Assembly (NCBI GenBank): GCA_001557035.1
Contig: LSKJ01000046.1
Location: 1-14,057, forward strand
Source of the DNA: Rhodospirillaceae bacterium CCH5-H10
GTDB taxonomy: Bacteria; Pseudomonadota; Alphaproteobacteria; Reyranellales; Reyranellaceae
Length of the DNA: 14,057 nt
Direction of reading: 5' to 3'
Shown: positions 1-14,057 of the stretch, one piece after another
Layout: the number at the start of each line of letters is the position of its first letter
How positions within the stretch are numbered: position 1 is the first letter of the stretch
Position numbers and translations under genes: made by a program
Notes under the pieces: model-generated
Told to the model about the DNA's origin: nothing
Seen by the model: the letters and a program-made list of their open reading frames with translations, nothing else
Databases searched by the model: none

Positions 1-914
1 GCACGGGACTGGTGAGTCACGACGAGCGCTACGAGCGCGGCGAGGAATTCGTTCAGGTCGCGAAGGCGCTGTGGGACAGCTGGGCCGATGATGCGGTGCT
101 CGACGATCGCGCGAGCGGGCACTATGCGCGCGCCGACCGGATCAGGCCGGTCAACCACGAGGGCAAGTTCTATCGCGTCGCCGGCCCGCTCAACATGCCG
201 CGCGGGCCACAAGGACGCCCCGTATTCGTGCAGGCGGGCTCGTCCGACACGGGCCGCCGCTTCGCCGCCCGTCACGCCGAGGCGGTGTTCACCGCGCAGA
301 TGGAGAAGAGCACGGCGCAGGAATTCTATGCCGACCTGAAGAAGCTGGCGGCAGCGGAGGGGCGGCCGTCCCAACACGTGCTGATCCTCCCCGGCCTCAG
401 CCCGGTGATCGCCTCGACCGAGACCGAGGCCAAACGGCTCGCAAAGGAACTGAATGAGCTCACCGATCCGGAGGTCGGGCGCAAGCGCCTGAGCGGCCGG
501 TTCGGTGGCCACGACTTCTCGCACCTGCCGCTCGACCGCCCCCTGACGGAAGCGGACTTCCCCGACCCCGGCACGGTCCAGGCCGCTCGCAGCCGCACCG
601 AAGTGATCGTCGGACTGGTTCGCCGCGAAAAGTTCACCCTGCGCCAACTGCTCGCCTATCTTGCGGGCGCCCGCGGCCACTACACCACCGCCGGCACGCC
701 GGAACAGATCGCCGACCTGATCGAGGACTGGTTCGACGACGGCGCCGCCGACGGCTTCAACCTGATGCCGCCGCTGCTACCCTCGATGCTCGATGTGTTC
801 GTGGCGGAGGTCGTGCCGATCCTGCAGAAGCGCGGGCTTTTCCGCACCGCCTATGAAGGCATCACCCTGCGCGATCATTTCGGCTTGCCCCGCCCTGCGG
901 CTCCGTCATCCTGA
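1..914 (+). CDS. NtaA/SnaA/DszA-family FMN-dependent monooxygenase (5' end cut by window)
   Basis: This is the C-terminal ~300 residues of a luciferase-like (LLM-class) flavin monooxygenase of the nitrilotriacetate/pristinamycin/dibenzothiophene-sulfone monooxygenase family. Such enzymes use FMNH2 from a partner reductase to oxidise small organic substrates. The visible part begins TGLVSHDERYERGEEF, matching the family segment where the core barrel turns to the HDERYER(A/G)xEF helix. It continues with KALWDSW, the F(Y)RVAGPLNMPRGPQGRPVFVQAGSSDTGRRFAARHAEAVFTA region (flavin phosphate-binding side) and the C-terminal GTPEQIADLIEDWFDDGAADGFNLMPP signature. The open frame runs to the left window edge, so the GTG at 12 is an internal codon and not a start. 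Full-length members are about 440 residues, so roughly 140 are outside the window. Substrate cannot be told. A VOC gene follows 32 bp later in the same direction, probably in one transcript. Confidence 0.9.
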   Translation, partial: TGLVSHDERYERGEEFVQVAKALWDSWADDAVLDDRASGHYARADRIRPVNHEGKFYRVAGPLNMPRGPQGRPVFVQAGSSDTGRRFAARHAEAVFTAQMEKSTAQEFYADLKKLAAAEGRPSQHVLILPGLSPVIASTETEAKRLAKELNELTDPEVGRKRLSGRFGGHDFSHLPLDRPLTEADFPDPGTVQAARSRTEVIVGLVRREKFTLRQLLAYLAGARGHYTTAGTPEQIADLIEDWFDDGAADGFNLMPPLLPSMLDVFVAEVVPILQKRGLFRTAYEGITLRDHFGLPRPAAPSS

Positions 915-1366: not shown

Positions 1367-2350
1367 ATGCGCCCCTTTTCACGCCGCGCCCTGTTGGCAT
1401 CCGCCAGCGCGGCCCTTCTGCCGCACGCGGCTGTCGCCCAATCCGGGCTGCCGGAGCGCGCCATCCGGATCTGGGTCGGATTCGCAGCGGGCGGCGGCTC
1501 CGACGTCGTGGCGCGCGCCATCGCGCCCGCGATCCAGCAGCGCCTGACGCGGCCCGTCACCGTCGAGAACCGCCCCGGCGCCGCCGGTGCCACGATGGGC
1601 GATGCCTTGAAGAAGGCCGCGCCCGACGGAGCCACGATCGGACTGCTGCCGAGCACCACGCTGATCGGCCGCCTGATATCGCCCGCGACCTTCCCGTTCG
1701 ATCCGCTGCGCGATCTCGCCCCCCTCGGGATCGTCGGGACTTTCGAGACGGCGTTCGTCGTGTCGCGGTCGATCGACGTGCGGACCATGGCCGAGTATGC
1801 GCAATGGGTGAAGGACGGACCGCCGGAACGCCGTCGCTTCGGGACCGCGGCGCCCGACACCTTCTCGCAGTACTTCGCGCAACTGCTCGCCCAGCAGTAC
1901 GGCGTCACCCTCGACCCCGTGCCCTTCCGCGGCACCGGTCCGATGTCTTCCGACATCGGCCAGGGTCGCATCGCGGCAGGCTGTGGCGGGCTCGCCTCCT
2001 TCGTCCACCATCATCGCAGCGGCAAGCTGAGGGTGCTGGCGACATCGGGCGCGGCGCGCAATCCCGTGCTGCCGGACGTACCGACGGTGGTCGAACTGGG
2101 CTTTCCGTGGCTTCAGTTGATCGACTGGTATGGCTTCTTCGCGCCGGGCGGCTTGCCGCCGCAGCTCGTCGAGGCCTGGAACCGCACATTGCACTACGCC
2201 GTCGATGCGCCGGAGGCGAGGGATCAGCTCACACAGTACGGTGTCGTCGTCGGCGTGACCCAGGCGGAGGAATGCAGAAAGCGTCTCATCGCGGATTTCG
2301 AGCGGTGGCGCATCCTGCTTGACAGTCTGGGCCTACGGACCGCCAACTGA
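1367..2350 (+). CDS. Bug/TctC-family tripartite tricarboxylate transporter substrate-binding protein (copy 1)
   Basis: A 327-residue periplasmic solute receptor of the Bug family, which captures carboxylates and other small organic molecules, classically for TctAB membrane partners. The N-terminus MRPFSRRALLASASAALLPHAAVAQ is an export signal with a twin-arginine-like S-R-R-A-L-L motif, a hydrophobic stretch and an AVA|Q cleavage site near residue 24. The mature protein shows the family pattern: PERAIRIWVGFAAGGGSDVVARAIAP, VENRPGAAGATMG, FPFDPLRDLAPLG, then the VPFRGTGPMSSDIGQGRIAAGCGG region and DVPTVVELGFP. It ends at a normal length. No TctA or TctB gene is present in the window. The ribosome site is weak (AGG directly before the ATG). 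The next gene, the glutaredoxin-DinB fusion, starts only 19 bp after the stop. It closely resembles the Bug protein at 6189-7184. Confidence 0.9.
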   Translation: MRPFSRRALLASASAALLPHAAVAQSGLPERAIRIWVGFAAGGGSDVVARAIAPAIQQRLTRPVTVENRPGAAGATMGDALKKAAPDGATIGLLPSTTLIGRLISPATFPFDPLRDLAPLGIVGTFETAFVVSRSIDVRTMAEYAQWVKDGPPERRRFGTAAPDTFSQYFAQLLAQQYGVTLDPVPFRGTGPMSSDIGQGRIAAGCGGLASFVHHHRSGKLRVLATSGAARNPVLPDVPTVVELGFPWLQLIDWYGFFAPGGLPPQLVEAWNRTLHYAVDAPEARDQLTQYGVVVGVTQAEECRKRLIADFERWRILLDSLGLRTAN

Positions 2351-2358
2351 CATCGTTC

Positions 2359-2363
2359 AGGAG
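2359..2363 (+). promoter_or_regulatory. Shine-Dalgarno deciding the start of the UGA-containing gene
   Basis: AGGAG sits 6 nt upstream of the ATG at 2370. It shows that translation is meant to begin before the UGA at 2406, in the frame that continues into the glutaredoxin and DinB domains. No comparable site precedes possible in-frame starts after the UGA, such as the TTG at 2661. Confidence 0.8.
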
Positions 2364-2369
2364 AGTGGC

Positions 2370-3122
2370 ATGACCGAACCGCTGAAGGTGTTCTGGCAGC
2401 CTGGTTGAACCAGCTGCCTGAGACTCAAAGAGTTTCTATCGGTCCGTGGGATCGACTTCGTTTCCGTCAATGTCCTTGCCGACCCGGCCGGCTTCGCCGA
2501 GCTGCAGTCTCTCGGCGTACGCTCCGTACCGGTCCTGTCGCGCGGCAAGGATTTCATCTTCGGCCAGAGCACGCGGGAGATCGTCGCCTTCCTCGGCCTG
2601 CAGGAAAAATCCGGCCCAGAACTGTCGCCGGCTGAACTCCATGCGCGCCTCGACAAATTCTTGACGGCGGCCATCGGGCTGCTGCCCTTGATGCCGGACG
2701 AGAAACTCCACGTCCACGTGCCCGGTCGTCCCCGCAGCTATCGGTCTCTCGCCTTCCACCTCTTCCGCGTGGTGTCTGCTTTTCTCGATGCCGAGCAGGG
2801 CATTACGCTCGTGCAGGCGGCCTTCCGCGAGGAACCCGCGGCCGATGCGGACATGGCGTCCGTGGTGGCCTACGGCACCGCCGTCCAGGAGCGTTTCCGC
2901 AACTGGTGGGCTCAGGGCGATACCGGCGCGGCGCGCCTGCTCCCGACCTACTACGGCGACCAGAGCCTGCACGAGTTGCTGGAACGGACCACCTGGCACT
3001 CCGGCCAGCATGTGCGGCAATGGATGATGCTGCTGGAGCGGGAGGGGGTGGCTCACGACCGTCCCCTCGGCGAGGCTGATTTTGCCCGGTTGCCGATGCC
3101 TGCGAACGTCTGGGACGGGTGA
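2370..3122 (+). CDS. Glutaredoxin-DinB fusion with in-frame UGA at the first redox Cys: candidate selenoprotein
   Basis: Read with UGA (2406-2408) as selenocysteine, this is one 250-residue protein. Residues ~4-85 are a glutaredoxin/NrdH-like thioredoxin fold: LKVFWQPG, then U13-T14-S15-C16, KEFL, IDFVSVNVL, and GVRSVP with the expected cis-Pro54. Residues ~95-245 are a DinB/YfiT-like four-helix domain with the metal-type histidines H130 (SLAFHLF), H210 and H214 (TTWHSGQH), ending in FARLPMPANVWDG. The ATG at 2370 has AGGAG at 2359-2363, 6 nt upstream and 19 bp after the Bug gene. The 237 codons after the UGA hold no other stop or frameshift. The UGA replaces the catalytic (N-terminal) Cys of CxxC, the classic site of Sec/Cys exchange. 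I recall alphaproteobacterial Cys homologues with WQPGCSSC. Likely role: thiol-disulfide or selenol redox chemistry, fused to a DinB thiol/metal domain. Alternatives are a TGC-to-TGA nonsense mutation or a sequencing error. Sec machinery (selA, selB, selC, selD) is not in the window. Confidence 0.68.
2395..2455 (+). promoter_or_regulatory. Candidate bacterial SECIS region: three consecutive triloop hairpins at the UGA
   Basis: Three hairpins can be drawn by hand. (1) 2395-2418: a 10-bp stem with one bulged C (2401), with the UGA itself as the 3-nt loop. (2) 2420-2436: a 7-bp stem (one G-U) with AAA loop 2427-2429, beginning 18 nt after the UGA. (3) 2439-2455: a 7-bp stem (one G-U) with GUG loop 2446-2448, beginning 37 nt after the UGA. 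Bacterial SECIS elements lie inside the reading frame just after the UGA. As I remember the published model, the apical loop starts about 16-37 nt downstream and has a G in its first two positions. Hairpin 2 fits the spacing but lacks the loop G. Hairpin 3 has the loop G but sits at the spacing limit. Hairpin 1 would have to melt in the ribosome. Which of these SelB would bind is unknown. No U-run follows, so this is not an intrinsic terminator. Confidence 0.45.
2406..2408 (+). other. In-frame UGA, candidate selenocysteine codon
   Basis: Codon 13 of the glutaredoxin-DinB gene. It is preceded by V-F-W-Q-P-G and followed by T-S-C, so it occupies the attacking cysteine of a CxxC redox motif. A single base separates it from the Cys codon TGC. 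The position, the intact frame on both sides and the structured RNA downstream fit Sec insertion. A nonsense mutation cannot be excluded from one sequence. Confidence 0.6.
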
Positions 3123-3193
3123 TTCGCAACTTCCGGGGCCCTCGGGCGTTTGGATTGCCAGACGACCCCAATTCACCAGCCCGGAGAACACAC

Positions 3194-3523
3194 ATGCGCG
3201 TCACTCACGCCAACGGCAAGGATCTGGCCAAGGAGATTTCCCTTCTCAAGGCCCAGCTCGAGGAACTGACGGGAACGATGAACGGCGCTGGGCATTCGAT
3301 GGTCGCCAAAGGCGAGGAAGCCATCGAGGAGACCCTCAAGTCGGCCCGCGAGTTGATCGCCAAGTATGGTGACACCGCCAAGGCGATGGCTCAGGACACG
3401 ATCGACCTGAAGAACAAGGCGACGGACAAGTTCATCGAGCACACCGAGGCCCGCCCGCTGACGACGATTGCTGCGGTTGTCGGCATCGGCTTCCTCGCAG
3501 GTTGGCTTTGTCGTCGGCAGTAG
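3194..3523 (+). CDS. DUF883 (YqjD/ElaB-like) membrane-anchored protein
   Basis: A 109-residue protein of the YqjD/ElaB/YgaM type. Residues ~10-85 are a charged amphipathic helix (KDLAKEISLLKAQLEELTG, then EEAIEETLKSARELIAKYGDTAKAMAQDTIDLKNKATDKFIEHTEARP). It is followed by one C-terminal membrane helix, TTIAAVVGIGFLAGWL, and the basic tail CRRQ. In E. coli YqjD is inner-membrane anchored by its C-terminus and associates with ribosomes in stationary phase, so a similar role is possible. The start at 3194 is chosen because GGAG precedes it at 3183-3186; a GTG at 3119 in frame adds 25 residues that do not look like the family. The following gene encodes a small two-helix membrane protein, the common YqjD-YqjE-type pairing. 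Confidence 0.85.
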   Translation: MRVTHANGKDLAKEISLLKAQLEELTGTMNGAGHSMVAKGEEAIEETLKSARELIAKYGDTAKAMAQDTIDLKNKATDKFIEHTEARPLTTIAAVVGIGFLAGWLCRRQ

Positions 3524-6188: not shown

Positions 6189-7184
6189 ATGACAATGAAG
6201 AAGATCGGCCGCCGTACATCGATCCTGATGACCGGCGCGGCGATCGCCACGCCGCTCGTACCCAGCGTCCACGCCCAGCAGACCGGCCTGCCCGACAAGC
6301 CGCTGAAGATCCTGGTCGGCTTTCCGGCCGGCGGCGGCACCGACGTGATGGCGCGCCTGCTTGCCGAGCCGCTGAAGCAGCGCACCGGCCGCAACGTCAT
6401 CATCGACAACAAGGCCGGCGCCTCGGGCACCATCGCCATCGGAGACCTGAAGAGCGCCGGCACCGATGGCACGACCATCGCCTACGTGCCCTCCGCCACC
6501 ATCGTCCAGAAGCTGACGATGCCGGCCGTGCCCTTCGATCCGTTGACGGACATCGCGCCGATCACCCTCGCCGGCACGGTGCAGACCGCCTTCTGCGTCT
6601 CGCCGACCATCGGCGTCAACAATCTCAAGGAATATGTCGAGTGGCTGAAGAAGAACCCGACCCGGGCTTCCTTTGGCACGACGGCGCTGGGCTCCTTTAC
6701 GCACTTCTTCGGCGTCATGGCCGGCAAGGCGGTGGGAATCCCGCTCGAGCCCATTCCCTATCGCGGCGCCGCGCCGCTGGTCGCCGACCTGCAGGGCGGT
6801 CATATCGCTGCCGGGTGCGGCGGCATCACCGATTTCCTGGAGCACCACCGCGCCGGCAAGGTGAAGGTCATCTTCACCTCGGGCGTGAAACCGACCACCT
6901 CGGCGCCTGAAATCCCAACCATCACGCAGCTTGGCTACCCGCAGCTCTCGATCCTGGGCTGGTACGTCTTCTTCGCTCCCCCCAAGACACCCGCGCCGCT
7001 GATCGACGCCTGGGGCAAGGAACTGAAGGCGGTGCTGGCAATTCCCGAGATCCAGAAGAAGCTGGTCGAACTGGGTCTCGATGTCGAAACCTCCACGCCC
7101 GCGCAAGTCACCGAACGCATGACGGCCGATCTCGCGCGCTGGAAGACGATCATCGATTCGATCGGCTATAAGCCACAGGGTTGA
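6189..7184 (+). CDS. Bug/TctC-family tripartite tricarboxylate transporter substrate-binding protein (copy 2)
   Basis: A 331-residue periplasmic receptor. The leader MTMKKIGRRTSILMTGAAIATPLVPSVHAQ has a twin arginine, a hydrophobic core and a VHA|Q cleavage site near residue 29. Family segments are PDKPLKILVGFPAGGGTDVMARLLAEPL, VIIDNKAGASGTIAIGDL, VPFDPLTDIAPITL, IPYRGAAPLVADLQGGHIAAGCGG and EIPTITQLGYP, with the typical C-terminal helix. A very good Shine-Dalgarno, GGAGG (6176-6180), lies 8 nt before the ATG at 6189; a second in-frame ATG is at 6195. It shares long similar stretches with the Bug protein at 1367-2350, including the AAGCGG motif and the HHR(A/S)GK turn, so the two are paralogues of one subfamily. 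It is followed 17 bp later by an alpha/beta hydrolase, suggesting uptake plus hydrolysis of the same compound class (inference). Confidence 0.92.
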   Translation: MTMKKIGRRTSILMTGAAIATPLVPSVHAQQTGLPDKPLKILVGFPAGGGTDVMARLLAEPLKQRTGRNVIIDNKAGASGTIAIGDLKSAGTDGTTIAYVPSATIVQKLTMPAVPFDPLTDIAPITLAGTVQTAFCVSPTIGVNNLKEYVEWLKKNPTRASFGTTALGSFTHFFGVMAGKAVGIPLEPIPYRGAAPLVADLQGGHIAAGCGGITDFLEHHRAGKVKVIFTSGVKPTTSAPEIPTITQLGYPQLSILGWYVFFAPPKTPAPLIDAWGKELKAVLAIPEIQKKLVELGLDVETSTPAQVTERMTADLARWKTIIDSIGYKPQG

Positions 7185-8329: not shown

Positions 8330-8707
8330 CTACAGCACGACCTTCGAGTTCGCCAACAGCCACCGGCGGGCCTCGTGGATCGAGCGGAACACCTGGACGG
8401 GCCGCTCGTCTGAGGTGAGCGACATGAAGAGCCTGCCGAGTTCGCCCCGATTGCCGTCGGCCACGATCGCGAGCGGCCCGCGCGGCCGCTGGAGGGGCGC
8501 GGCACGCAGACGCTCCGCAATGCCCTCCAGTTCTTCCTTGCCGAGCGCCGACGTCGCCGACGTGATGTCGATGATCTTGCGATAGGGCAATGTCCCGCTG
8601 TCGATCAGTTCCTTGACGAGCGTCATCAGGTCCGCAAGCGTGATCTCGCCTCGGGCGACGGCAACGACCATGCGGTCCGGCGGAAAAATATCGAGCTTGA
8701 AAGGCAT
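8330..8707 (-). CDS. SpoIIAA/STAS-like protein, paralogue A
   Basis: A 125-residue cytosolic protein without membrane segments. It resembles the SpoIIAA-like/STAS-fold proteins of alphaproteobacteria: MPFKLDIFPPDRMVVAVARGEITLADL, then YRKIIDITSATSAL, QRPRGPLAIVADG, GRLFMSLTSDERPVQVFRSIHEARRWL. The closing (R)PV(Q/K)VF(R/H)S(I/L)H-AR(R/K)WL motif is shared with its neighbour at 8824-9198. These are often described as possible anti-sigma-factor-antagonist-like or lipid-binding proteins, but no role is proven. AGG lies 5 nt before the ATG at 8707. It converges on the DUF4189 gene, with 16 bp between the stops, and lies 116 bp downstream of its paralogue. Confidence 0.75.
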   Translation of the reverse strand: MPFKLDIFPPDRMVVAVARGEITLADLMTLVKELIDSGTLPYRKIIDITSATSALGKEELEGIAERLRAAPLQRPRGPLAIVADGNRGELGRLFMSLTSDERPVQVFRSIHEARRWLLANSKVVL

Positions 8708-8823: not shown

Positions 8824-9198
8824 TCATGGCATCGGCTGCTCGTCGAGCCATTTTCTCGCCGCATGCAGGCTATGAAAGACCTTCACCGGACGCTCGGCGC
8901 CGGTCAGCCGGGCGAATGTCTCGGCGTTGTCGGCAGCCTGGCCGGGATTGACGACGAAAGCGAGCGCACCACGCGGTCGGGAAACGGGTTGGGACAGGAC
9001 CAGATTGGCCATCATCTGGACGCCGGCACCGTCCAGGGGCGCCGTGGGCGACGCGATATCGATGATCTTTCGGTAATGCAGCACGTCGCTGGCGAGGAAT
9101 TGCTGCACGGCTTCCCGAACGTCGTCAGCCGTGAACGTCCCGCGCACGACGGCGATGGCGAGACGGCTCGGGTGAAAGAAATCGATATGGATCGGCAT
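8824..9198 (-). CDS. SpoIIAA/STAS-like protein, paralogue B
   Basis: A 124-residue soluble protein that aligns end to end with the neighbour at 8330-8707: MPIHIDFFHPSRLAIAVVRGTFTADD, HYRKIIDIASPTAPL, SRPRGALAFVV, ARLTGAERPVKVFHSLHAARKWLDE. By eye roughly 35-40% of positions are identical, so the pair is an old tandem duplication rather than a recent copy. The ATG at 9198 is preferred over an in-frame GTG at 9222 because it gives the same N-terminus and length as the paralogue. Neither start has a clear Shine-Dalgarno. It is transcribed away from the unknown membrane protein at 9293. Function is unknown; a regulatory STAS-like role is only an inference from fold similarity. Confidence 0.75.
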   Translation of the reverse strand: MPIHIDFFHPSRLAIAVVRGTFTADDVREAVQQFLASDVLHYRKIIDIASPTAPLDGAGVQMMANLVLSQPVSRPRGALAFVVNPGQAADNAETFARLTGAERPVKVFHSLHAARKWLDEQPMP

Positions 9199-9292
9199 CT
9201 GGTCGCGGCTCGGCTCGCCCACATTTTACCGCATGCGTACGGCAGGGTCGCTGGCGATACCATGCCCGGGCGCAGCCGCAAACAGGAGTAGC

Positions 9293-10638: not shown

Positions 10639-11865
10639 TCAGTTCCCCTTCAGGATCTTGGCCGTCGCATCGGCGAAGACCTGGCAACCCAGCACGATGT
10701 CGGCATCGTCGGTGTTTTCGGTGAAATGGTGTGAAATGCCGCCGATCGACGGCACGAACATCATCGCCGCCGGCATCTTCAATCCGATCACCTGCGCGTC
10801 GTGTCCGGCGCCCGACGGCATGCGCATGTGCTTGTCGGGGGCATGGGCCGCGGCCGATTCCTCGATTGCCTCAAGGAAACGCTCGTCCATGACCAGCGGC
10901 TGGGTGCGCGAAAGGTTCACGCACTCGACCTTGCACGGGCTGTTCTTCTGGTGATCGGCGACGATCTCCATCAGCTTGGCCTCGAAGGCCTGCAGCACCT
11001 TGTAGTCGGCGTCACGGAACTGGAGGATCATCTCGGCCCGGCCGGGCACGATCGCCGGCGCGCCGGGCTCCAGCACCATCTTGCCGACGGTCCAGACGCT
11101 GCGCGGACCCGAGACGGCCGGGAACTTGTCCATCACGTCGTTGTAGAGCCGCATCATCGCGACGCCGGCATCCTTGCGGATCGGCATCGGCGTCGTGCCG
11201 GCATGGTTCTGGATGCCGCTGAAGGTCAGGCGGAACTGCATGATGCCGACGATCGCCGTCACGATGCCGATGCGCTTCTCGCCGGCTTCGAGGAGACCGC
11301 CCTGCTCGATATGGGCTTCGAGGTAGCCACGGTACCTTCCCTCCTCCAGATGTTCGCGCGGCACGCCCTCGAGACCGGCCGCCTTCAGCGCCTCGCGCAT
11401 CGGCGTGCCTTCGTCGCGGTGCTTGGCCTTATCGATGTCGGCCTCGGAGAAGATGCCGATGAAGGAGCGGCTGCCGGTCATCTGGCCCCAATGGCCTTCC
11501 TCGTCGGCCCAGGAGGCGACGTCGACGGCGAGATGCGCCGTCTCGGGATCCTCGGCCAGCGCCCGCGCCACTTCGAGCCCGTAGATCACGCCCATCACGC
11601 CGTCGAGCCAGCCGCCGCGCGGCTGCGTGTCGGAGTGCGAGCCGATCAGGATTCGCGGGCCGGTCTTCGGGCTCTTGCCGATCACCGTGCCGATGCCGTC
11701 GATCACCGGTTCGAGTCCCGCTTCCTTCATGCGCGCCGCGAGCCAGTGCCGGCTCTCGACATCCTGCGGCGACAGATGCGGGCGATGCACGCCGGTCTGG
11801 TAGCGGCCGAAATCGGCGATCCGCCGCAGGTCGCCGAGCAGTCGTTCACCGTTGATCGTGGGCAT
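10639..11865 (-). CDS. Zn-dependent hydrolase, M20 family (N-carbamoyl-amino-acid hydrolase/allantoate amidohydrolase type)
   Basis: A 408-residue member of the hydantoinase/carbamoylase (HyuC/AmaB/AllC) group, di-metal enzymes that cleave N-carbamoyl or ureido groups and release ammonia and CO2 or an amino acid. Metal-site motifs are visible: GSH77SD79T, GGWLD88GVMGV (bridging Asp), WADE122E123GHWG, HIEQGGLLEAG with His185, and late GISHHFTEN with the last His ligand. GIQNHAGTTPM and SGAGHDAQ are the usual dimerisation-domain and substrate-side segments. The start is the ATG at 11865, with an excellent GGAGGAGAA (11871-11879) just upstream. The family fits an amide/ureide nitrogen-scavenging role with the two amidases upstream; the exact substrate is unresolved. 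A large inverted repeat ends next to its ribosome site. Confidence 0.9.
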   Translation of the reverse strand: MPTINGERLLGDLRRIADFGRYQTGVHRPHLSPQDVESRHWLAARMKEAGLEPVIDGIGTVIGKSPKTGPRILIGSHSDTQPRGGWLDGVMGVIYGLEVARALAEDPETAHLAVDVASWADEEGHWGQMTGSRSFIGIFSEADIDKAKHRDEGTPMREALKAAGLEGVPREHLEEGRYRGYLEAHIEQGGLLEAGEKRIGIVTAIVGIMQFRLTFSGIQNHAGTTPMPIRKDAGVAMMRLYNDVMDKFPAVSGPRSVWTVGKMVLEPGAPAIVPGRAEMILQFRDADYKVLQAFEAKLMEIVADHQKNSPCKVECVNLSRTQPLVMDERFLEAIEESAAAHAPDKHMRMPSGAGHDAQVIGLKMPAAMMFVPSIGGISHHFTENTDDADIVLGCQVFADATAKILKGN

Positions 11866-11870
11866 GTCAG

Positions 11871-11879
11871 TTCTCCTCC
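11871..11879 (-). promoter_or_regulatory. Strong Shine-Dalgarno of the Zn-dependent hydrolase, abutting an inverted repeat
   Basis: Read on the - strand this is GGAGGAGAA, 5 nt before the ATG at 11865. It fixes that start over the in-frame ATG at 11886. The inverted repeat at 11881-11992 ends one base upstream, so folding of the repeat in the mRNA could affect access to this site (inference). Confidence 0.75.
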
Positions 11880-11880
11880 A

Positions 11881-11992
11881 CCTCATCCTGAGGAGCGGCC
11901 CCTTGGGCCGCGTCTCGAAGGATGGGAACCCGCACCTTGTCTGTTGCCCATCCTTCGAGACGCATCGCTACGCGATGCTCCTCAGGATGAGG
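11881..11992. repeat. 112-bp composite palindromic intergenic repeat with co-varying inner hairpins
   Basis: Two 46-nt arms, 11881-11926 and 11947-11992, are inverted copies of each other separated by a 20-nt spacer. Each arm has an outer 16-nt block (CCTCATCCTGAGGAGC), an inner segment of 14 nt and another 16-nt block (CGTCTCGAAGGATGGG). The blocks match perfectly between arms. The inner segments differ in sequence yet both fold with a flanking C as a 6-bp stem with 3-nt loop (11896-11910 and 11963-11977). Elements of this CCTCATCCTGAGGAGC kind are, to my knowledge, dispersed between genes of many Rhizobiales and related genomes. There is no transposase and no U-run, so it is neither a full insertion sequence nor an obvious terminator. 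It fills most of the gap between the second amidase (stop at 12010) and the Zn hydrolase (start at 11865). Confidence 0.85.
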
Positions 11993-12009: not shown

Positions 12010-13278
12010 TCAGTTCAAATGCGCCGCGACCCAGGCGGCAAGGGAAAGCACGCGGTCGTCCTCGTGACGCAGGCCGACGAGTTGCACGCCGAGCGACAGC
12101 CCGTTCGGGCCGGTGCCGGCGGGTAACGTCACGCAGGGCGTGCCGGCCAGCGTCCAGATCGAGTTGAAGACCGGATCGCCGGTGGCCGCGAGTCCCCTGG
12201 GCGCCTCGCCCGGCGCACTCGGCGTCAGCAGCAGGTCGACCTTGTCGAACAGGGAGTCGACATGGGCCTTGAAGGCGGTGGCCTTGCGTTGGGCCGCGAC
12301 GTAGCGCTCGAAGGAGACGGCAAGGCCGCGCTTCATCGGCCCGTTCATCAGCTCGTCGCTCACCTTGTCGGGATTGCGCAGCCGCTCGTCGGCATAGTTG
12401 CGCACGCTCTCGAAACCGGTGATCGCGGCATGGTCGTCGATGATGTCGGTGAACTGCGGCGCAAACGACAGGTCGACGACCGACGCGCCCTTGTCGGACA
12501 GCAGCGTCGCCGTGTTCTCGATCAGCGCCCTGGTCTCGGGCTCGGCCTGATCCCAGACCGGCGAGCGGCAGACACCGATGCGCGGCCGGCCGATGTCGCG
12601 GTCGATGCGTACCGGCGGCAGCTTCAGCACGGCGGCACGGAACAGCGCGATGTCGTCGAGGGTGCGCGCCATCAGGCCGAGCGTATCGACCGAATGGCAC
12701 TGCATCTTGATGCCGACGCGGGAGAAATCGCCGAAGGTCGGCTTGTAGCCGACGATGCCGCAATAGGCGGCGGGCCGGATCACCGAGCCGCCGGTCTGCG
12801 TGCCGAACGCCAGCGGCACATGCCCATCGGCCACCGCCGCGGCGGAACCCGACGACGAGCCTCCCGGCGTGTGCGCGGGATTGTGCGGATTGGTCGTCGC
12901 GCCCGGATGGCGATTGGCGAACTCGGTCGTCACCGTCTTGCCCATGATGACGGCATTCTCGGTCCGGCAGAGCGCCACGCAGGCGGCGTCGCCGAACGGC
13001 ACCTTACCCTCGAAGATCGGCGAGTTGTGGCCGGTCGGCATGTCGTAGGTGTCGATGATGTCCTTCACGCCGACCGGGATGCCACGCAGCAGGCCACCGC
13101 TCGCGGCATCGGCGGCCCGTGCCTGAGCGATCGCCTGGTCGGGATCGAGATGGACCCAGGCCTTCACGACATCGTCACGCCCGGCGATGCGGTCGAGACA
13201 GTCGCGCACCAGCTTCTCGGAGGTGAGCGTGCCGGCCTCGATGGCGGCAACGGCTTCGACGGCGGTGATCGGCTTCAT
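12010..13278 (-). CDS. Amidase signature family protein (GatA-like)
   Basis: A 422-residue amidase-signature enzyme, hydrolysing carboxamides to acid and ammonia. The Ser-cisSer-Lys triad is clear: Lys72 in GIPVGVKDIIDT, Ser141 in TPGGSSSGSAAAVADG and the nucleophile Ser165 in GTQTGGSVIRPAAYCGIVGYKP. The C-terminus FNSIWTLAGTPCVTLPAGTGPNGLSLGVQLVG is the family's substrate-channel and closing segment. The length is normal for stand-alone amidases and no GatB or GatC is nearby, so a catabolic amidase is more likely than the tRNA amidotransferase. Its ATG at 13278 overlaps the TGA of the upstream amidase (ATGA), with GGAG 9 nt upstream inside that gene, which indicates translational coupling. 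The two are paralogues. Confidence 0.92.
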   Translation of the reverse strand: MKPITAVEAVAAIEAGTLTSEKLVRDCLDRIAGRDDVVKAWVHLDPDQAIAQARAADAASGGLLRGIPVGVKDIIDTYDMPTGHNSPIFEGKVPFGDAACVALCRTENAVIMGKTVTTEFANRHPGATTNPHNPAHTPGGSSSGSAAAVADGHVPLAFGTQTGGSVIRPAAYCGIVGYKPTFGDFSRVGIKMQCHSVDTLGLMARTLDDIALFRAAVLKLPPVRIDRDIGRPRIGVCRSPVWDQAEPETRALIENTATLLSDKGASVVDLSFAPQFTDIIDDHAAITGFESVRNYADERLRNPDKVSDELMNGPMKRGLAVSFERYVAAQRKATAFKAHVDSLFDKVDLLLTPSAPGEAPRGLAATGDPVFNSIWTLAGTPCVTLPAGTGPNGLSLGVQLVGLRHEDDRVLSLAAWVAAHLN

Positions 13279-14057
13279 GACAGCACGCTCCGCGCCCAGG
13301 CCGCGATGTCGAGCAGGCTGGCATCCTCATGCTGGCGGCCGACGAGCTGGATGCCGACCGGCAGGCCGGTCGGCCCCCTGGTCAACGGCAGGGTCACGCA
13401 GGGCATCCAGAGATAGGTCCAGAGCAGGTTGAAGGTGGCATCGCCCGTTCGTTCGAGGCCGAGGGGCGCTTCGCCCTTGGCCGGCGCCGTCAGGATGACG
13501 TCGATGTCGGAGAACAATGCGTCGACAGCTGCGCGGCCGGTCTCGCCCAGCTTCCGCGCGGCCACCCAGGTCGCATAGTCGATCTTGGAACCGGCTTCGA
13601 GCTTGTCCTTCTTCAGGCTCTCGCTCAGCAGCCCGGGGAAGCGTCGTGCCTCGTCGGCATGGGCACGCGGCCCGTCGAAGGCCGACAGGGTCTTCTGACC
13701 CTCGGTCATGTCGCGCACCGGCGCAGGCAGCTCGATCTCGCTCACCTGTGCGCCGGCTTTGGCAAAAGCCGCCGCCGCGTCGGCCACCGCCTGCGTGCCT
13801 TCGGGAGAAAGCTCCTCGCGATGATGCGTGAAGGCGACTGCAATGCGGGGAGGCCGGTCGAGCTTGCCGATCGGCGTGAAGGGCATCGCCATCAGCGCGG
13901 CGCGGAACAGCGCGATGTCCTCCACGCTGCGGGCATAGGCACCGATCGTGTCGAGCCATTCTGTGTTGGCCTTCATGCCGGCCGGCGCGAAGTGGCCGTA
14001 GCTCGGCTTGTAGCCCACGACGCCGCAGAAGGCGGCGGGACGGATCACCGAACCGCC
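13275..14057 (-). CDS. Amidase signature family protein, second paralogue (5' end cut by window)
   Basis: The last 260 residues of a second amidase-signature protein, whose N-terminal part lies beyond the right window edge. The first visible residues, GGSVIRPAAFCGVVGYKPSYG, contain the nucleophile Ser; the Lys and cis-Ser are outside. Later segments FNLLWTYLWMPCVTLPLTRGPTGLPVGIQLVG and EDASLLDIAAWARSVLS match the downstream amidase in order. The GTG at 14048 is the Val after the nucleophile and not a start. Two similar amidases in one transcript may split substrate range or form a hetero-oligomer (inference). The TGA (13275-13277) overlaps the next ATG. Confidence 0.9.
   Translation of the reverse strand, partial: GGSVIRPAAFCGVVGYKPSYGHFAPAGMKANTEWLDTIGAYARSVEDIALFRAALMAMPFTPIGKLDRPPRIAVAFTHHREELSPEGTQAVADAAAAFAKAGAQVSEIELPAPVRDMTEGQKTLSAFDGPRAHADEARRFPGLLSESLKKDKLEAGSKIDYATWVAARKLGETGRAAVDALFSDIDVILTAPAKGEAPLGLERTGDATFNLLWTYLWMPCVTLPLTRGPTGLPVGIQLVGRQHEDASLLDIAAWARSVLS

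Follow-up and report, generated by a model that had tools for sequence, protein, structure and literature searches.

Selenoprotein glutaredoxins with a UxxC motif, U being selenocysteine (Sec), are known as an entry defined by the glutaredoxin domain (PF00462) alone, and a 2026 inventory of prokaryotic selenoproteins holds such a plain entry among its 119 families and subfamilies; in the main text of that inventory, as far as available, the word 'DinB' is absent and a glutaredoxin-DinB (Grx-DinB) fusion is not listed (PMC13188914). The UXX-star selenoproteins (NF041212, NF041211 and NF047338), judged by their names, are also glutaredoxin-like proteins with Sec. On the other side stand the thiol S-transferases of the DinB/YfiT group, among them BstA, mycothiol S-transferase and mycothiol-dependent maleylpyruvate isomerase, which have in common a four-helix bundle and three histidines; these are conserved in BstA according to the available part of its description (PMC5815605). 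Here we describe a gene at positions 2370–3122 of a 14,057-nucleotide stretch of Rhodospirillaceae bacterium CCH5-H10 (contig LSKJ01000046.1; hereafter the window, meaning the whole stretch analysed), which is predicted to encode a protein that carries both domains and has Sec at an in-frame UGA (2406–2408). The pairing of UGA with Cys among homologues, the co-occurrence of Sec machinery, a conserved hairpin and synonymous constraint together make this a well-supported predicted selenoprotein, and we put the probability of that assignment at about 95%.

Results

Direct reading of the frame gives an ATG at 2370–2372, a terminal TGA at 3120–3122 and 250 codons, including a single in-frame TGA at codon 13 with the residue context WQPG-U-TSC. 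A sequence-only reading of the window had proposed exactly this frame, preceded by a Shine-Dalgarno sequence and broken by UGA at codon 13 only, with the UGA in the first position of a CxxC-type redox motif, and both proposals are borne out.

We scanned genomes at the DNA level, confirmed 406 relatives and read the best 80 of these as loci; one (L075) ends before codon 13, leaving 79 readable. At codon 13, 78 of the 79 read TGA and the remaining one (L079) reads TGC. Each of the 78 TGA loci has exactly one stop inside the match, and neither TAA nor TAG occurs at codon 13 in any locus read. The taxa represented include Reyranella, Vineibacter, Enhydrobacter, Desertibaculum, Acetobacteraceae and Minwuiaceae, with TGA also in the named strains Reyranella massiliensis 521, R. 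soli NBRC 108950, R. aquatilis KCTC 52223 and Vineibacter terrae CC-CFT640; a UGA peculiar to this one strain is thus excluded. Relatives down to about 50% identity to the window protein all have UGA, the exception L079 standing at 49%; Cys forms found at the DNA level span 37–49%, and UGA forms reach down to 44%.

Cys forms were also sought with residues 1–42 as the query, which returned 16 proteins, 12 of them full-length (254–274 amino acids) with Cys at position 13. An even sample of the class, 289 genomes in all, contained 24 with a homologue (E 1e-20 or better), of which 15 have TGA and 9 have Cys (6 of the 15 TGA genomes were already in the earlier searches). Both residues that were to be looked for at position 13 are therefore present among homologues, and the in-frame UGA aligns with the homologues' Cys at the redox site, the pattern by which a selenoprotein is recognized. 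The picture of a Grx-DinB family with Sec here and CxxC in its other members needs amending to this extent: Cys homologues exist, but most close relatives have UGA. Cys-type Grx-DinB proteins (for example P0131, from Bradyrhizobium sp. STM 3562) share both domains with the window protein, and their WQPGCTSC motif matches its WQPG-U-TSC; unlike the window gene, they have a Cys codon and no full hairpin in the 12 loci read. Cys-type copies also occur in two genomes that hold a UGA copy (L125 in G017 and L126 in G089), and these could be paralogues or contamination of metagenome-assembled genomes. Viral contigs gave 32 pattern matches, none of them a relative.

On a quick tree built from 76 sequences (53 Sec and 23 Cys, thinned from 113), the labels require 2 Sec/Cys changes, against a mean of 20 in shuffled data. 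Because the tree is quick and its root was not inferred, gain and loss of Sec are indistinguishable in it; it would fit a single origin of the Sec form plus one further change. The single Cys row within the Sec part of the tree (P0124) sits on a long branch.

The published model of the bacterial selenocysteine insertion sequence (bSECIS), in the available part of its source, specifies a stem of 4–16 bp, a loop of 3–9 nt with a G in its first two positions, a loop position 16–37 nt after the UGA and a minimum free energy (MFE) of −7.5 kcal/mol or lower (PMC13188914). SECIS prediction, which had been proposed as a check, finds a hairpin at 2439–2455 that fits this model either as 6 bp with a CGUGG loop at 36 nt or as 7 bp with a GUG loop at 37 nt. 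Its energy is −7.5 kcal/mol when bare, only just at the model's line, and −8.1 kcal/mol with two flanking bases per side (z −2.1). Of 90 UGA genes, 87 have the full stem and 89 the loop CGUGN, and none of 12 Cys genes has either; a further 34 loci, all TGA, were taken as copies of included ones and left out of the 90. In a scan for the geometry, all 90 UGA genes yielded some hairpin, 89 of them with an energy of −4 kcal/mol or better, as did 7 of the 12 Cys genes, 1 of which reached that energy.

Hairpin cells are paired in 98.5% of cases over 58 sequences (the window and 57 of the 78 UGA loci) and in 97.9% over 40 more diverse sequences chosen post hoc (the window, 30 of those loci and 9 from the class sample). 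Stem substitutions in the 40 replace U-A by C-G (3), G-C (1) or G-U (1). None of 500 shuffles matched the percentage paired, the five compensatory cells or the covariation score, and controls in which the hairpin was slid along the alignment were 12–57% paired. Since kinship can beat shuffles without any structure, the contrast between UGA and Cys genes weighs more. A nearer hairpin at 2420–2436, weighed as an alternative SECIS, was discarded: across the 40 diverse sequences 81.4% of its cells are paired with no compensatory change, and its covariation is no better than that of shuffles. RNAalifold proposed a different pairing upstream. An Rfam scan of the window gave nothing at gathering score, and on 2300–3200, at E up to 1, a single sub-threshold snoRNA match.

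Selection on the protein is visible upstream of the codon. Comparing codons by position, gap-free, over 79 UGA genes (window included), we obtained for codons 5–12, upstream of the UGA, a synonymous difference (pS) of 0.51 and a non-synonymous difference (pN) of 0.058, a ratio of 0.11; these codons are under protein-level selection. Synonymous difference was 0.20 for codons 17–30 and 0.52 for codons 31–73. In a scan of synonymous conservation over 71 of the 79 genes, near-copies removed, the maximum fell in the 8-codon window 21–28, at 0.41 over expectation, against a mean of 0.12 (standard deviation 0.075) for all such windows. The terminal stops of the 79 genes are 48 TGA, 22 TAG and 9 TAA.

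We searched 50 locus-bearing genomes, covering 50 of the 79 loci (49 UGA and 1 Cys), for the Sec machinery. SelB exceeded its cut-off in 46 of the 49 UGA genomes and tRNA-Sec reached 67 bits or more in 48, with neither in the Cys genome; only the top-scoring group of tRNA-Sec matches was counted (lowest counted 66.1 bits), not everything above the gathering score of 47, because further model matches reach about 54 bits. In the class sample SelB is present in 41 of 289 genomes, and SelB together with tRNA-Sec in 14 of 15 TGA genomes versus 3 of 9 Cys genomes (Fisher p 0.004); SelB itself is likewise found in 3 of the 9. A Cys-type Grx-DinB gene beside SelB and tRNA-Sec was seen at L134 (G151), L133 (G152) and L144 (G288). 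The genes selA and selD were each found in 23 of 24 UGA genomes, and in 0 and 1 of 4 Cys genomes, respectively, which is not an independent contrast, since all 24 UGA genomes had SelB and all 4 Cys genomes lacked it.

Within the taxonomic order of genome G010, 71 of 76 genomes have a match, which in 3 of the 45 newly added genomes is to the glutaredoxin part alone. A clear tRNA-Sec is present in 41 of the 45: in 34 of 37 with a Grx-DinB match, for part of which TGA is known just from stop counts in the matches, and in 7 of 8 without a full match. The machinery in those seven is therefore independent of the Grx-DinB gene. In G148 (contig 48) about 7 kb separate the UGA gene from selB and tRNA-Sec, and in seven further genomes (G001, G003, G005, G010, G013, G014 and G030) the gene shares a contig with selB at a distance of about 74–95 kb. 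A tRNA scan of the window found none.

As a positive control we used FdhA, a known selenoprotein. It is present in 14 of the 24 UGA genomes, all 17 matches have one TGA, and its context is UHGP in the four inspected. The other 10 of the 24 gave no match to Sec-type formate dehydrogenase (TIGR01553) at E 1e-60; among their listed Fdh-alpha (TIGR01591) matches none has a TGA and one has a TAG.

The two domains of the product are recognized by Pfam, PF00462 at 39.0 bits (cut-off 22.9) and PF12867 at 26.2 bits, only just above its cut-off of 24.8. A score over gathering, the C/UxxC motif and the conserved Pro54 identify the first as a glutaredoxin domain. Pro54 occupies what we take to be the cis-proline place of the thioredoxin fold, so that of the earlier claim of such a fold with a cis-Pro54, the domain and the invariant proline are established here and 'cis' itself is presumed. 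The DinB domain claimed to follow the glutaredoxin part is indeed found, at residues 102–217, and with three conserved histidines it belongs to the DinB superfamily. What sets the window protein apart from the plain UxxC glutaredoxins is its fusion to DinB, and from the DinB/YfiT thiol S-transferases the extra N-terminal glutaredoxin domain with its predicted Sec. It misses the cut-offs of all three UXX-star models (27.6 versus 66, 18.4 versus 100 and 22.9 versus 97 bits). Glutathione S-transferases presumably follow a similar plan, a thioredoxin fold with a helical domain, but here the helical half is DinB.

Table 1. Positions of the Grx-DinB gene and its elements in the window.
Feature	Position	Strand	Basis or remarks
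Shine-Dalgarno-like AGGAG	2359..2363	+	Read directly; 6-nt spacing to ATG
Grx-DinB gene, predicted selenoprotein	2370..3122	+	250 residues with predicted Sec13; read directly, Pfam, UGA-containing relatives
Glutaredoxin domain, residues 6–60	2385..2549	+	PF00462; fold matches 7c10, 3zit
Predicted selenocysteine, UGA codon 13, first UxxC position	2406..2408	+	TGA/Cys at codon 13 of homologues
Cys16, second UxxC position	2415..2417	+	Direct reading, alignment; putative resolving cysteine
SECIS-like hairpin	2439..2455	+	Stem 2439–2444/2450–2455, loop CGUGG 2445–2449, 36 nt after UGA
Pro54 codon	2529..2531	+	Invariant in 36 aligned sequences
DinB_2 domain, residues 102–217	2673..3020	+	PF12867; fold matches DR0053, YfiT
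His130, first histidine of putative metal triad	2757..2759	+	Invariant in 36 aligned sequences
His210 and His214 (HxxxH), rest of putative metal triad	2997..3011	+	Invariant in 36 aligned sequences

Upstream, a TctC-type gene ends at 2350. A survey of neighbours over 80 sets (the 79 loci and the window, with crude frame picking) found a TctC-type receptor in 32 sets, a glyoxalase in 15 and a luciferase-like protein in 13; hydantoinase A lies near L055 and L062 (Acetobacteraceae), the latter also with hydantoinase B, and an amidase near L077. These neighbours may hint at a catabolic setting, too inconsistently to build on. The window itself has TctC-type receptor genes at 1367–2350 and 6189–7184 (both forward), and no transporter membrane gene of a TctC system was found among its 17 frames scanned with Pfam. 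Further along, two paralogous small proteins (8330–8707 and 8824–9222, both reverse) are 42% identical over 118 aligned positions, one with a sub-threshold SpoIIAA-like match and the other with none. Tandem amidase-family genes (12010–13278 and 13275–14057, both reverse) overlap by 4 bases, the second running off the window, with an M20 peptidase-family gene at 10639–11886 nearby.

Discussion

How the gene appears in public databases bears on the alternatives to Sec insertion. A search with the read-through protein returned 2189 proteins at E 0.001 or better. The best 120 of these are 196–239 amino acids long with query coverage of at most 93%; their product names include 'DinB family protein' and 'NrdH-redoxin', and those named by organism are from Reyranella, Vineibacter terrae or Proteobacteria. 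All 20 relatives that we fetched start past the UxxC motif, at varying points (about residues 17, 33, 42, 50 and 53), and many therefore retain part of the glutaredoxin domain. The expectation that annotation would lose this gene is thus right as to the front part, which is missing from the public entries, and wrong in foreseeing only a DinB fragment, as the remnant is often longer.

The first residues of these entries fall on potential start codons a little downstream of the UGA. That would suit a gene with dual output, in which available selenium leads to Sec insertion, its lack to a shorter product begun after the UGA, and the UGA works as a selenium switch. Such an arrangement would add to the selenoprotein assignment rather than replace it. 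The chosen start varies among the entries, however, and gives no sign of selection for one short-product start; we consider the switch improbable. A simpler proposal is that translation truly ends at the UGA, the gene being decayed or only its downstream part made from a later start, and here the same 20 entries, together with a TTG-initiated open reading frame at 2661, can be cited in favour. This is very unlikely: selection at the protein level acts on the codons before the UGA (pN/pS 0.11), all 78 TGA matches have a single stop, TAA and TAG never replace the TGA in the loci read, and the hairpin and Sec machinery are present. Read-through by a suppressor tRNA inserting Cys or Trp draws some credit from the Cys homologues, which suggest that Cys is workable at position 13, but SelB and tRNA-Sec co-occur with the UGA form, as do SelA and SelD in the UGA genomes tested, and the conserved bSECIS-fitting hairpin is absent from Cys genes, so that we give this explanation hardly any weight. 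An assembly or sequencing error at 2406–2408 is practically dismissed by the identical TGA in 78 of 79 other contigs, named Reyranella and Vineibacter strains among them.

Several observations nonetheless weigh against Sec insertion or its link with the hairpin. Taken by itself, the hairpin has only modest stability (−8.1 kcal/mol, z −2.1), that of the 55-nt region is unremarkable (z −0.86), and an MFE of −7.5 kcal/mol or lower over 60 nt does not discriminate, being reached by 90 of 90 UGA and 12 of 12 Cys genes. The count of pairs in which both partners changed (2) was reached by 22 of 500 shuffles and the number of pair types by 25 of 500. One UGA gene (L080) lacks this hairpin, though another one there fits the geometry. 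Sec machinery in 3 of 9 Cys genomes means that the link is not absolute. In genome G027, which has SelB and tRNA-Sec and whose FdhA bears a TGA, neither selA nor selD was matched, and five UGA genomes (G019, G060, G064, G067 and G106) have no clear tRNA-Sec, although these assemblies of 2.8–4.5 Mb may be incomplete. For the window strain, selABCD are presumed from its kin rather than seen directly.

Under the selenoprotein assignment, the ribosome at UGA 2406–2408 would insert Sec, with SelB and tRNA-Sec delivering it and the hairpin at 2439–2455 giving the signal. The product would consist of a UxxC glutaredoxin domain and, fused to it, a DinB four-helix bundle whose three-histidine site is invariant. 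The Sec13 selenolate would most likely attack a disulfide, a mixed disulfide or an electrophile, Cys16 or glutathione might resolve the intermediate, and a DinB metal site might bind or activate a thiol or the substrate. We offer this chemistry tentatively, somewhat short of even odds; a role as a thiol oxidoreductase or S-transferase is likewise tentative.

Within the open-access literature searched, where full text held no report of a Grx-DinB selenoprotein (subscription journals and preprints lay outside the search), the predicted protein represents a domain architecture not previously listed. A more speculative extension, which we think rather doubtful, is that Grx-DinB is a selenium-dependent, glutathione S-transferase-like enzyme of Alphaproteobacteria and in some lineages the main or only selenoprotein, sustaining the whole Sec system; it takes its cue from the 10 of 24 UGA genomes without a Sec-type formate dehydrogenase, a count that covered formate dehydrogenases alone among the other selenoprotein families.

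The prediction adds a widespread Sec family to Alphaproteobacteria, in Reyranella and its kin, Acetobacteraceae and others. Public entries for the TGA-type proteins lack the predicted catalytic residue, an annotation that can be corrected through the UGA/Cys alignment together with the CGUGN hairpin. The occurrence of Sec and Cys forms in one fused scaffold, with named strains of Reyranella and Vineibacter available as material, would allow a test of what selenium gains the enzyme, and the family would link the DinB thiol-transferase superfamily to selenium.
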